From Candidatus Latescibacterota bacterium (GTDB lineage Bacteria > JAAXHH01 > JABIQT01), in NCBI GenBank assembly GCA_018667995.1, contig JABIQT010001048.1, positions 1 through 5,063 on the forward strand: 5,063 bases of DNA, read 5' to 3'. Below are positions 1 to 4,584 of the stretch, one piece after another. The position numbers and the translations under genes are program-made. The notes beneath the pieces are model-generated. The model was not told the DNA's origin and did no database searches. It was given only the letters and a program-made list of their open reading frames with translations. Positions within the stretch are counted from its first letter, which is position 1. The number at the start of each line of letters is the position of its first letter.

Positions 1-549
1 CTCTACGATGCGCTCCATATCGATCAACCCACCGACTATGTTCCGCATGGTCATCAACACTAGAGAGCGGGCCGTTTGGGCAGCATGGGCGCCCTGGTCG
101 AGCACCTGTTCAAGCATGTGCAGATCACGAGACCACTCATCCAGGCGAATTCGCGACGCCCGCACCTGAGTTGAGATCTGTCCCTGTACTACCAGGCTTT
201 CTACCTTGCTGTATAATTCCTCTCGAGAAATCGGCTTCGAGGCGAGATCCGCCGCTTGGAGCGCCATGACAGCCATACAGCAGGAGACCGTAGGAGAATC
301 CGACAGGACCAGAATAGGGATACTGGGCAGAATCTTACGAATTTCTGAGATAAATGCCAGATCGGTATTGCCAGGCATCCCCGCATCAATGATCAATAGG
401 TCGAATGCTCCCTGAATAACCCTTACTTCGGCTGTTTCCGTAGCCGACGCCATATCGCATTCGTACCCTTCACTCTGGAGCATCTCTGAGATAGACGCGA
501 GCGCTATTGGATCGCTATCAACGATCAACAACTGTCCTCTGGACTCCAT
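1..549 (-). CDS. Response regulator with N-terminal receiver domain; C-terminus off window
   Basis: The visible 183 residues begin with a complete CheY-like receiver domain (about residues 5-120). The acidic pair is D11 and D13 in IVDSDP, the likely phospho-acceptor is D55 in LLIIDAGMPG, the switch Ser/Thr is S83 in ILVLSDS, and the conserved lysine is K105 in SKP. All key residues are present, so it should accept phosphate from a histidine kinase; no kinase lies in the window. Residues about 120-183 are mainly helical by composition, with a charged, possibly coiled-coil stretch (RIRLDEWSRDLHMLEQVLDQ) followed by a hydrophobic helix-like segment. I do not recognise an OmpR, NarL/LuxR or NtrC output domain, but the reading frame is still open at the left edge, so the output domain may lie beyond. 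The start at 549 is chosen because GGAGGG (556-561) sits six bases upstream. That ribosome site lies inside a long inverted repeat. Receiver identity is firm; target and output are unknown. Confidence 0.9.
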   Translation of the reverse strand, partial: MESRGQLLIVDSDPIALASISEMLQSEGYECDMASATETAEVRVIQGAFDLLIIDAGMPGNTDLAFISEIRKILPSIPILVLSDSPTVSCCMAVMALQAADLASKPISREELYSKVESLVVQGQISTQVRASRIRLDEWSRDLHMLEQVLDQGAHAAQTARSLVLMTMRNIVGGLIDMERIVE

Positions 550-637
550 GATGTGCCCTCCACGACAGAATAGGAGTATTCGTTGTTTGTTGGCATAAAT
601 CGTGAATACATAATAGCGAATGCCGGAGGGCACATCA
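549..637 (-). promoter_or_regulatory. Structured leader of the response-regulator gene that can hide its ribosome site
   Basis: Bases 625-637 (GGAGGGCACATCA on plus) are the exact reverse complement of 549-561 (TGATGTGCCCTCC), a perfect 13-bp inverted repeat separated by 63 bases. In a minus-strand transcript starting upstream of 637, the first arm would pair with the GGAGGG Shine-Dalgarno sequence, the spacer and the A of the AUG at 549. Between the arms are smaller possible stems: 592-596 with 620-624, directly stacked on the main stem, and 568-572 with 577-581. This fits a translational switch (thermosensor, ligand- or protein-controlled leader), but no known riboswitch class is recognised. 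A weak promoter candidate lies upstream: TTGAAG (728-733) and TATGTC (704-709) with 18 bases between. Alternatively TATTAT (610-615) could be a -10 box, in which case the upstream arm is not transcribed and the repeats would be DNA operators. Bases 638-823 hold nothing else that I can support. Confidence 0.5.
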
Positions 638-823
638 CTCGGGGAATATCCTAGAGCCGAAGGAAATTTGGATGAGAAACTGATTTTTAGGAGCCAATTG
701 ATGGACATAGCACGTGGAGATCCGCACCTTCAATGAGCCAGCTAGATGTACTATTCCTGTTCCTCCTCTGCACCAAACCTGGGCATCATGATGGATCCAA
801 GGTAACTATACGTTGCGCAGTGT

Positions 824-1951
824 TCATTGGGGGGGCGTGAGCTTGAGCATCCGTCCCCCGCTTCCATCCTCGAGAATCCACAGGGCTCCGCCAGGACCTT
901 CTTCCACCTCACGAATGCGTTTTCCCATGCTGAACCGCTCGGCTTCCCTGGCAGTATCATCCTTGAGCACGATTCTTATCAAAGCTTCGGACGAGAGGCC
1001 ACCGATGAAAGCGCTGCCACGCCAATTGGGAAATAGACTTCCTGAGTAGACAATCAATCCGGAGGGTGAGATGACGGGAGTCCACCAAACCTTAGGAGCT
1101 TCAAATTCAGGTCTGGTATCGTGACCTGGAATGGGATTTCCGTTGTAGTGATCACCGTTGGAGACAAGAGGATAGCCATAGTTTGCACCGCGCCTCACGA
1201 GATTCAGCTCGTCCCCACCGCGTGGGCCCATCTCCTGGTTCCAGAGACGCCCCTCGGCATCAAAAGCTATACCTAAGGGATTGCGGTGCCCCAATGACCA
1301 GATCTGAGCAGTGACCCCACCTTGGTCCACAAATGGGTTATCTGAAGGTACGGATCCGTCATCGTTGAGTCGGATAATCTTCCCGAGATTCTGATTCATA
1401 TCCTGAGCCGGATCAAATTTCTGGCGCTCTCCCGAGGAGATGAAGAGAAGTCCGTCGGGTGAAAATGCCATCCGGTGTCCAAAGTGCCCCCGCCCGACTA
1501 CTTTAGGAACCTGGCGCCAAATAACCTCCAGATCAGTCAGAGTGCCACTCCCAGATGAATAGACCAGTTTGGCCCTAGCTACTGCTGCGCCTCTCACGTC
1601 ACCCGATCCAGCCTCAACGTAACTCAGATAAATGACCCCATTATCGGTAAAATTCGGATGGACGATCACGTCGCCCAGGCCGCCCTGACCACCGTAATCT
1701 ACTTTGGGTACTCCTTGAATTGGAGCCGACTTCTTTCCGTCTTGTTCAACTACAATGAGACGTCCGGATTTCTCCGTAACGAGTATGCTACCATCCGGCA
1801 GAAATGCCATAGCCCAAGGCTCATTGAAACTCGCAACGGCTGCCGATTCGAACGGCCGAGGATCCTGTTCTGCCCGACTCGAAACCGTGGCGATGCCGAC
1901 CATCAGCATAGCGATTGTTACCACCCAGAGAGATGTTCCTGTTCGATACAT
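824..1951 (-). CDS. PQQ-dependent aldose sugar dehydrogenase, periplasmic (YliI/Asd-like)
   Basis: This 375-residue protein belongs to the soluble glucose/sorbosone dehydrogenase beta-propeller family, which oxidises aldose sugars to lactones in the periplasm using pyrroloquinoline quinone and calcium. Residues 1-27 form a Sec signal peptide: YRTG start, hydrophobic core about 8-22, likely cleavage after SSRA. Family motifs follow in order: [12 protein letters not shown] (43-54), [13 protein letters not shown] (87-99), [12 protein letters not shown] (156-167) with the probable catalytic base H156, [14 protein letters not shown] (182-195), [10 protein letters not shown] (221-230) with PQQ-contacting R223-N224, [11 protein letters not shown] (240-250), [15 protein letters not shown] (257-271), and RIREV (345-349) with R345 and R347 in the family's PQQ-binding positions. 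Residue roles come from family knowledge. Length is normal for the family and nothing is missing. The frame is open upstream to 2143, but the start at 1951 is preferred: AGAGGA lies about seven bases upstream and the signal peptide begins there. No PQQ biosynthesis gene or cytochrome partner is visible. Confidence 0.93.
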
Positions 1952-1980
1952 TCGATTTTCCTCTGTGGAAAGACTTTTGG

Positions 1981-2388: not shown

Positions 2389-4584
2389 TCAGTTCTGTGA
2401 TGCACCTACCTTGTCTGGATTTGTGATCTGCCGGATGGCTTCAACACTTGCGTCGCGCACCCACTCAGTCTGATCACGGCTTGTGGAGTTAAGCGCTGGG
2501 AGCGCAACCCGTGCCGGAACACCGAGCCGTCCAAGCGCCTTGGCGGCACGGTACCGGGACTCTCCGTTCCAATCTCGAACACGTAGTGCTCTGACGAAAA
2601 TAGGTATGACACGTTGAGGCTCCGCTTTGTCCATCATTGTTAAGGCATATGCGGCGTTGAACGTAGCGTCCTCATCTTCATCGTTGAGCTGCTCCATCAA
2701 CCTGGGTGCCGTCGATTCTGCGGTCTTGCCCATCCACCCAAGAGATAAAGCGCCCTGCCCACGTACGTCACTGTCGGTATCCTCCAACGTTTCAGACAGT
2801 GCCGTAATCACCTCAACCGTGGTCTCGCCAATGATACCCAGAGATTTGGCGGACTCCACTCTTACATCAGATGCGGAATCCTCAAGAGACTGCAGAAGAC
2901 CTGGTACGGCGACTGACCGGCCGATCTGGCCCAATGATTGGGCTGCTTCACGACGAACATCCTGGGAACCGTCATCCAATATATCCATCAGCGGCGATAC
3001 ACCAGCGGCATCGCCTATCTGGCCCAAGGCATCTGCAGCTTCACGACGGACATTGTCCGATTCGTCGCGCAAGGCATCAATGAGTCCGTTGATCGCGCCC
3101 GCATCACCAATCTGGCCGAGGGCATCTGCGGCCTCACGACGGACTTCACTGGAGTCATCTTTCAAGGCCTCGATCAACGCCGGAACTGCGGAGGCGTCCT
3201 CGATCTGGCCCAGAGCATCGGCCGCCTCACGACGGACCTCACGAGATTCGTCTCCGAGCGCTTCTATGAGAGCGGAAACAGCCTGACTATCCTGGAAATT
3301 TCCAAGTTCATCGGCCGCCTCGCGACGGACCTCACGAGATTCGTCCTTCAGTGCGGCAATCAACCCGGGAATCGCAGCAGGGTCTTCCATGCTACCCAGG
3401 GCATCCACTACTTCGCGTCGGACCTCACGAGAAGGATCATTCAGTGCCTGGATGAGCCCATCAGCTGCCGACGGATCTTCGATCACACCCAAGGCATCTG
3501 CTGCTTCCCGACGTACCTCCGAAGACTCATCCTTGAGAGCTTCGAGAAGGGCAGGAACGGCTGCAATAGCCTCAGTCTCTCCAAGGGCATCGGCCGCCTC
3601 ACGACGGACCTCACGCGAATCATCTTTCAGAGCCAGAATTAGCGCTTGAATGGACTCAGGAGCACGAAATTCGCCCAAGGCATCGGCCGCCTCACGACGG
3701 ACCGCGGCAGATTCATCTCCGAGCGCTAGCACAAGCCCCTCCGCCGCCGCTGGATCGTTCATCTCACCCAGAGCATCTGCAGCTTCACGTCGAACCTCAC
3801 GAGAGGGATCATCCAGCAGTCCAATCAGAGCGGGGATTGCTCGTGGATCATGAATCTCATCAAAGGAATCGGCCGCTTCACGCCTCACGTCACTGGATGG
3901 GTCGCTTAATGCTTCAATCAGAGCAGTCGTGGCACGAGGATCGCCCAAGTCTCCAAGTCCGTCAGCAGCTTCACGCCGAACTCCCCCATTCGGATCCTTA
4001 AGAGCCTCAATTAGAGCATCTACGGCGGCTGCAGATTGGATCTGACCGAGGGCATCAGTCGCCTCGCGTCGCACGTCCGAATTGGCGTCCTTCGTGGCTT
4101 GAATCAGAGCGGGCACCGCCGCCTCTCCTCCAATATCCCCGAGAGCATCGACTGCCTCGTACCGGACTTCACGAGAGGCATCTGACAGTGCCACAATGAG
4201 CCCGTCAATGGCGGACGGATCACCAATATCACCCAGTGCATCTGCAGCTTCACGTCGTACCTCGCGCGAATCGTCTTTGAGCGCTTCTATAAGGCCCGGC
4301 ACTGCAGCCCGGTCATTGAGCTCCCCGAGGGCATCTGCCGCCTCACGTCTGACTTGGCGACTCTCGTCCTTCAATGCGACAATGAGGGCGGCCACCGCAT
4401 CAGGACCACCGATTTCGCCAAGCGCTTCGACGAGTTTCTCACGAACCTTTGGTGAGGAATCCTGCATGCCGTCAACAAGGGGCTGCACACTCCTCTGCGC
4501 ATCGGCACTGCCTGAAAGTAACAATATGCCAACCGTAGTGGCCAGTATGCCAAATCGTCTGCTCATGGGAATTGGTTTGCTCAT
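2389..4584 (-). CDS. Exported protein of 22 HEAT repeats
   Basis: The 731-residue product starts with a Sec signal peptide (basic SRR at 8-10, hydrophobic 11-24, likely cleavage after SADA near residue 29). The rest is an alpha-solenoid of HEAT repeats of the PBS-lyase/HEAT_2 type. Repeat 1 covers 31-59. Repeats 2-18 (60-586) are each exactly 31 residues with the pattern DPxAVxALIxALKDxSxxVRREAADALGxIG. Repeats 19-22 (587-721) are longer (33-36 residues) and divergent, probably a C-terminal cap, followed by a short polar tail. VRREAADALG occurs unchanged nine times. Repeat 7 is the most aberrant in the array (SFDEIH in place of ALGxIx). Such solenoids bind protein partners or act as scaffolds; the ligand here is unknown, and no phycobilisome genes are present to suggest a lyase. 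The start at 4584 has AAGGAG nine bases upstream (or GAGG four bases upstream); the alternative Met at 4566 has none. It lies 70 bp after the DUF4097-like gene, so co-transcription is likely. Confidence 0.93.
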   Translation of the reverse strand: MSKPIPMSRRFGILATTVGILLLSGSADAQRSVQPLVDGMQDSSPKVREKLVEALGEIGGPDAVAALIVALKDESRQVRREAADALGELNDRAAVPGLIEALKDDSREVRREAADALGDIGDPSAIDGLIVALSDASREVRYEAVDALGDIGGEAAVPALIQATKDANSDVRREATDALGQIQSAAAVDALIEALKDPNGGVRREAADGLGDLGDPRATTALIEALSDPSSDVRREAADSFDEIHDPRAIPALIGLLDDPSREVRREAADALGEMNDPAAAEGLVLALGDESAAVRREAADALGEFRAPESIQALILALKDDSREVRREAADALGETEAIAAVPALLEALKDESSEVRREAADALGVIEDPSAADGLIQALNDPSREVRREVVDALGSMEDPAAIPGLIAALKDESREVRREAADELGNFQDSQAVSALIEALGDESREVRREAADALGQIEDASAVPALIEALKDDSSEVRREAADALGQIGDAGAINGLIDALRDESDNVRREAADALGQIGDAAGVSPLMDILDDGSQDVRREAAQSLGQIGRSVAVPGLLQSLEDSASDVRVESAKSLGIIGETTVEVITALSETLEDTDSDVRGQGALSLGWMGKTAESTAPRLMEQLNDEDEDATFNAAYALTMMDKAEPQRVIPIFVRALRVRDWNGESRYRAAKALGRLGVPARVALPALNSTSRDQTEWVRDASVEAIRQITNPDKVGASQN
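2827..4407 (-). repeat. Tandem array of 17 x 93-bp units inside the HEAT gene
   Basis: Repeats 2-18 of the HEAT protein are 17 consecutive 93-bp units without any length change. Similarity also shows at DNA level. For example, 3216-3252 and 3309-3345 are 93 bp apart and differ at one base of 37, and close copies of the same core recur at 3588 and elsewhere. Other units encode the same residues with different codons, so the array mixes old divergence with more recent copying. All units are in frame, so gain or loss of whole units would keep the gene open. Confidence 0.85.

Follow-up and report, generated by a model that had tools for sequence, protein, structure and literature searches.

A perfect 13-bp inverted repeat in exact register with the ribosome site of a response regulator gene: a candidate translation-masking hairpin

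A response regulator gene encoded on the minus strand is preceded by a perfect inverted repeat, the arms of which (positions 549-561 and 625-637) are reverse complements over 13/13 bp (100% complementarity) and are separated by 63 nt. The letters of the forward strand are TGATGTGCCCTCC at 549-561 and GGAGGGCACATCA at 625-637, and the start of the regulator, read on the minus strand, is GGAGGGCACATC-ATG, with the A of the ATG at 549. A preliminary description of this DNA had reported the uninterrupted 13-bp match and had placed its downstream arm precisely on GGAGGG, the spacer, and the A of the AUG; our check of the arms verified the match, and the register proved exact. We put at roughly 0.4 the probability that a cis-acting hairpin, as modeled from this repeat, shuts off translation of the regulator and is opened by something other than heat. 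The elements of the repeat are as follows.

625 to 637, minus strand: 5' (upstream) arm, coding-strand sequence TGATGTGCCCTCC, which would pair with the Shine-Dalgarno (SD) region and whose 3' end is the exact anti-SD motif CCCTCC
562 to 624, minus strand: loop of 63 nt, A+T-richer than the arms, with two small inner hairpins predicted and TATTAT (615-610) as a possible -10 box
549 to 561, minus strand: 3' (downstream) arm, coding-strand sequence GGAGGGCACATCA, comprising the SD, the spacer, and the A of the ATG

The window, by which we mean the whole stretch of DNA analyzed, is one contig (C370, 5,063 bases) in its entirety, and all of its recognizable genes lie on the minus strand. The draft genome to which it belongs totals 6.06 Mb and is split into 1,165 contigs.

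1 to 549, minus strand: response regulator of at least 183 aa, truncated at the contig end, with a receiver domain (Pfam Response_reg)
824 to 1954, minus strand: glucose/sorbosone (PQQ-type) dehydrogenase, encoded upstream of the regulator on the same strand, with a gap of about 275 bp between the two genes
2389 to 4584, minus strand: HEAT-repeat protein of 731 aa
minus strand, cut by the contig end: DUF4097 protein

The start at ATG 549 is credible because it places the receiver domain from residue 8 onward and has a strong SD, GGAGGG, 6 nt upstream. An in-frame ATG at 708, from which the frame is also open, was rejected in favor of ATG 549, as it has no SD and lies far upstream of the receiver. 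Beyond the receiver, the 183 residues present (including stretch 1-200) contained no recognizable domain or family. No terminator was found in 400-900, and no terminator-like site lies between the dehydrogenase and the regulator. The 731-aa protein consists almost entirely of HEAT repeats of the PBS-lyase type, many of them near-identical ('REVRREAADALG').

Were the regulator mRNA to begin upstream of 637, it would be expected to fold into a long-range hairpin in which the 13-bp helix, longer still with G-U pairs, would bury the SD, the spacer, and the start codon, leaving little or no synthesis of the regulator from the masked RNA by default. Folding predictions for an RNA that carries both arms gave all 13/13 pairs at a probability of about 1.0 at 37 C, with a duplex energy of -25.2 kcal/mol for the 13-bp helix. 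The 121-nt leader RNA as a whole folded at -39 kcal/mol (z = -2.66), a value equaled by 5/200 shuffled sequences, and the dominant feature of the predicted fold is a helix joining the SD and start to a segment further upstream, as in an SD-sequestering hairpin. The ribosome site of the regulator was the most fully paired among 255 leaders and its opening cost the third highest, a rank that is itself subject to selection, the leader having been picked for its repeat from a scan of an unspecified number of windows. The masking of the SD and start codon that had been proposed is thus well supported structurally in these predictions (pairs at about 1.0 at 37 C), provided that the transcript has both arms. 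For the hairpin to act in the cell, we infer joint transcription of both arms, selection of the helix, and the existence of an opener. Standing against a masking hairpin are the chance-level frequency of such repeats, the selection of this leader for its repeat, the lack of a match to Rfam, the lack of a homologous leader in the genomes, genome contigs, and plasmids searched, and the lack of any general SD masking across the genome.

Our comparison with other leaders of the same genome suggests that what is unusual about the repeat lies in its placement over the ribosome site, and less so in the repeat itself. In 254 other predicted leaders, many of whose starts are rough predictions, Watson-Crick helices over the SD reached at most 8 bp, versus 13 bp in the regulator leader; the maximum was 9 bp in 1,016 upstream-shuffled leaders and 10 bp when the regulator leader's own upstream sequence was shuffled 4,000 times. 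No general tendency toward SD masking was seen in the genome, helices of at least 6 bp occurring in 15/254 leaders and in 59/1,016 shuffled ones. The frequency of SD-covering helices drops about four- to eight-fold per added base pair, and extrapolation of this tail to 13 bp gives each single leader a chance of between a few per million and about one per hundred thousand. With an estimated gene number of about 5,500, this corresponds to roughly 0.02-0.08 chance leaders with an SD-covering 13-bp helix per genome, again by extrapolation, a figure that bears out the earlier contention that the placement is rarer than the repeat. Because the leader was chosen for its repeat and the number of windows scanned was not given, the rarity of the placement is suggestive and no proof.

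The repeat considered without its position is far less exceptional. It was the only perfect repeat of at least 10 bp with a loop of 3-100 nt in the whole window, and repeats of 13 bp or longer whose loops do not exceed 100 nt are expected 0.0075 times per window (about 0.75%); none of 60 first-order Markov sequences with the composition of the window reached 13 bp, and the preliminary estimate of under one in a hundred per window agrees with both results. At the genome scale, 745 kb of the same genome, sampled by regions, contained a single repeat that was 13 bp or longer and had a loop of 20-100 nt, namely, the 549-561/625-637 pair, where about 0.69 was expected, and the repeat by itself is therefore not beyond chance at this scale. 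Coincidence, in which the 13-bp repeat arose by chance, has no evolved role, and is tolerated through a promoter in the loop or through weak or rare expression of the gene, is nearly as likely as a translation-blocking hairpin. It accords with the chance rate of such repeats in the sampled 745 kb, with the selection of this repeat from a scan of unspecified size, with the 0.02-0.08 placements on a ribosome site expected per genome by extrapolation, and with the lack of a genome-wide family of the arm sequence, the exact matches being the two arms only. Two considerations weigh against coincidence: the register is exact from the first G of the SD through the A of the ATG, which any one leader would attain by chance between a few times per million and about once per hundred thousand, and a helix that shuts off a gene should be selected away if both arms are transcribed. 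Should the repeat be accidental, the lesson is that each megabase of genome can be expected to hold about one perfect 13-bp repeat whose loop measures tens of bases, and that only position or conservation gives such a repeat meaning.

Searches for relatives of the locus covered an order with only 15 other genomes, the next nearest genomes being assigned no closer than to the same domain. No orthologue of the regulator was found in the 15 order-mates, in 43 more distant genomes, in the scanned genome contigs, or in plasmids; its relatives were generic receiver domains, the best at 30% identity in its own genome and 29% in order-mates, and at about 30% or less throughout these searches. The leader DNA had no match in 95 other genomes. 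These searches yielded no homologous leader and hence no covariation between the two arms. A regulator paralogue on another contig (C1161), which falls within the 745-kb repeat sample, showed no like repeat in its leader by reading. The dehydrogenase has an orthologue of 73% identity in one order-mate (G013) and many proteobacterial relatives, and no matching regulator lay near it at the G013 orthologue or at 80 genome-contig loci, within the DNA fetched. Its presence in 1/15 order-mates (73%), together with identities of up to about 70% to proteobacterial enzymes, may reflect horizontal transfer. A mobile, MITE-like repeat was considered and rejected, given that no second copy was found in the genome or in 95 others, that there was no plasmid match and no viral match of the arm pair, and that the arms are not flanked on the outside by a direct repeat such as a target-site duplication would leave. 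A regulon-wide motif was likewise rejected, as the 6.06-Mb genome holds only two exact copies of the arm, 549-561 and 625-637, and none were found in relatives, plasmids, or viral contigs.

It is also conceivable, albeit unlikely, that the arms act as DNA. Transcription would then begin in the loop (e.g., from TATTAT at 615-610, with a start near 603), the arms would be inverted regulator sites, and the RNA would never contain both; their spacing of 76 bp, about 7.2 helical turns, would possibly allow DNA looping. The -10-like TATTAT in the loop is accompanied 17 nt upstream by a weak -35 match, GTGATG, which overlaps the upstream arm, and the A+T content of the loop exceeds that of the arms. 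With a start at 603, the ribosome site would be only about 56% paired at 37 C, and the masking helix could not form. However, promoter-like matches of 8 of 12 positions numbered 3 in this stretch versus 2.5 in shuffled sequences, so that the TATTAT box is not significant and these matches single out no start of transcription. There is no dyad within the arm, and the visible part of the regulator shows no DNA-binding domain. A third exact copy of the arm is absent from the 6.06-Mb genome, with which an operator of purely local use is compatible, and near copies are not in excess (4 with one mismatch versus about 7 expected for a random 13-mer). The downstream arm also falls on a good SD, a placement not required of an operator. 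The weak -10 box is the only positive support for a pair of operators.

A lock of the predicted strength would leave almost no expression, which counts against a masking hairpin. Heat alone would not suffice to open so stable a helix, and any opening would require a kinetic or active mechanism, such as a ribosome on a short upstream open reading frame (ORF) that starts in the 5' arm.

525 to 638, minus strand: possible short upstream ORF from GTG 638 or ATG 635, 36-37 codons; VMCPPAFAIMYSRFMPTNNEYSYSVVEGTSWSPEDSC

The start of this ORF lies within the 5' arm or immediately upstream of it, and translation would continue across the 3' arm and past the start of the regulator, in a different frame from the latter. 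The SD of the ORF itself is weak or absent, and a frame of its length would be open by chance in roughly 18% of cases. A ribosome translating it would prevent the helix from forming, much as translation of mgtQ frees the ribosome site of mgtB, an analogy that we regard as only a lead. The complete scheme, in which an unusually long perfect helix locks the regulator mRNA, a ribosome on the overlapping ORF opens it, and synthesis of the regulator hinges on translation of the ORF, strikes us as improbable. Alternatively, a competing small RNA or a protein might capture the 5' arm, the nature of any opener being a guess. Control of the leader by a ligand, a protein, or a small RNA is neither supported nor excluded by our analysis. 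A riboswitch of a known class was rejected, as the search against Rfam returned no conserved aptamer; neither the window nor the region 500-830 at E values up to 1 had any match (ROSE, fourU, other thermometers, and riboswitch aptamers). The RNA thermosensor suggested in the preliminary description, in which warming melts the helix and frees the SD, shares the hairpin-buried SD of ROSE and fourU elements but is contradicted by the predicted energetics and very improbable, because known thermometers depend on imperfect pairing with mismatches and non-canonical pairs (PMC3669281) and on marginal stability within the growth range, whereas this uninterrupted GC-rich helix, which has no match among the Rfam thermometer families, has a predicted mean pair probability of 0.998 at 37 C, 0.984 at 70 C, and 0.965 even at 80 C, with no melting predicted below 80 C.

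Comparison with characterized systems places the repeat among familiar arrangements and sets it apart from each of them. Like ROSE-like and fourU thermometers (PMC3669281, PMC10586365), it would form a leader helix over the SD; the pairing in those elements is imperfect or marginal and melts in the growth range, whereas the helix here is perfect. The ospC operator repeats of Borrelia, an example of paired inverted operators near bacterial promoters (PMC3966842), resemble it in being inverted and in lying in the 5' region of a gene, but in the present case the ribosome site itself forms the downstream repeat, with no promoter or binding protein identified. In the mgtQ-mgtB leader of Salmonella, an inhibitory stem-loop hides the ribosome site of mgtB, and translation of a short ORF opens the stem (PMC8092293). 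As in that leader, the ribosome site of the downstream gene lies in a hairpin of the intergenic leader, and a short ORF overlaps the structure. The mgtQ-mgtB leader differs in having mutually exclusive alternative stems of -12 and -16 kcal/mol, proven by compensatory mutation, the stem at the mgtB ribosome site being that of about -12 kcal/mol (PMC8092293); here, a single uninterrupted helix of about -25 kcal/mol is predicted, with no evident alternative stem and an ORF that lacks a good SD. If functional, the hairpin would thus represent a known kind of translational control. A real hairpin would add one more translationally silenced signaling gene to a well-known class, within a poorly sampled lineage, and its helix, stronger than is usual for a switch, would leave its opener to be explained.
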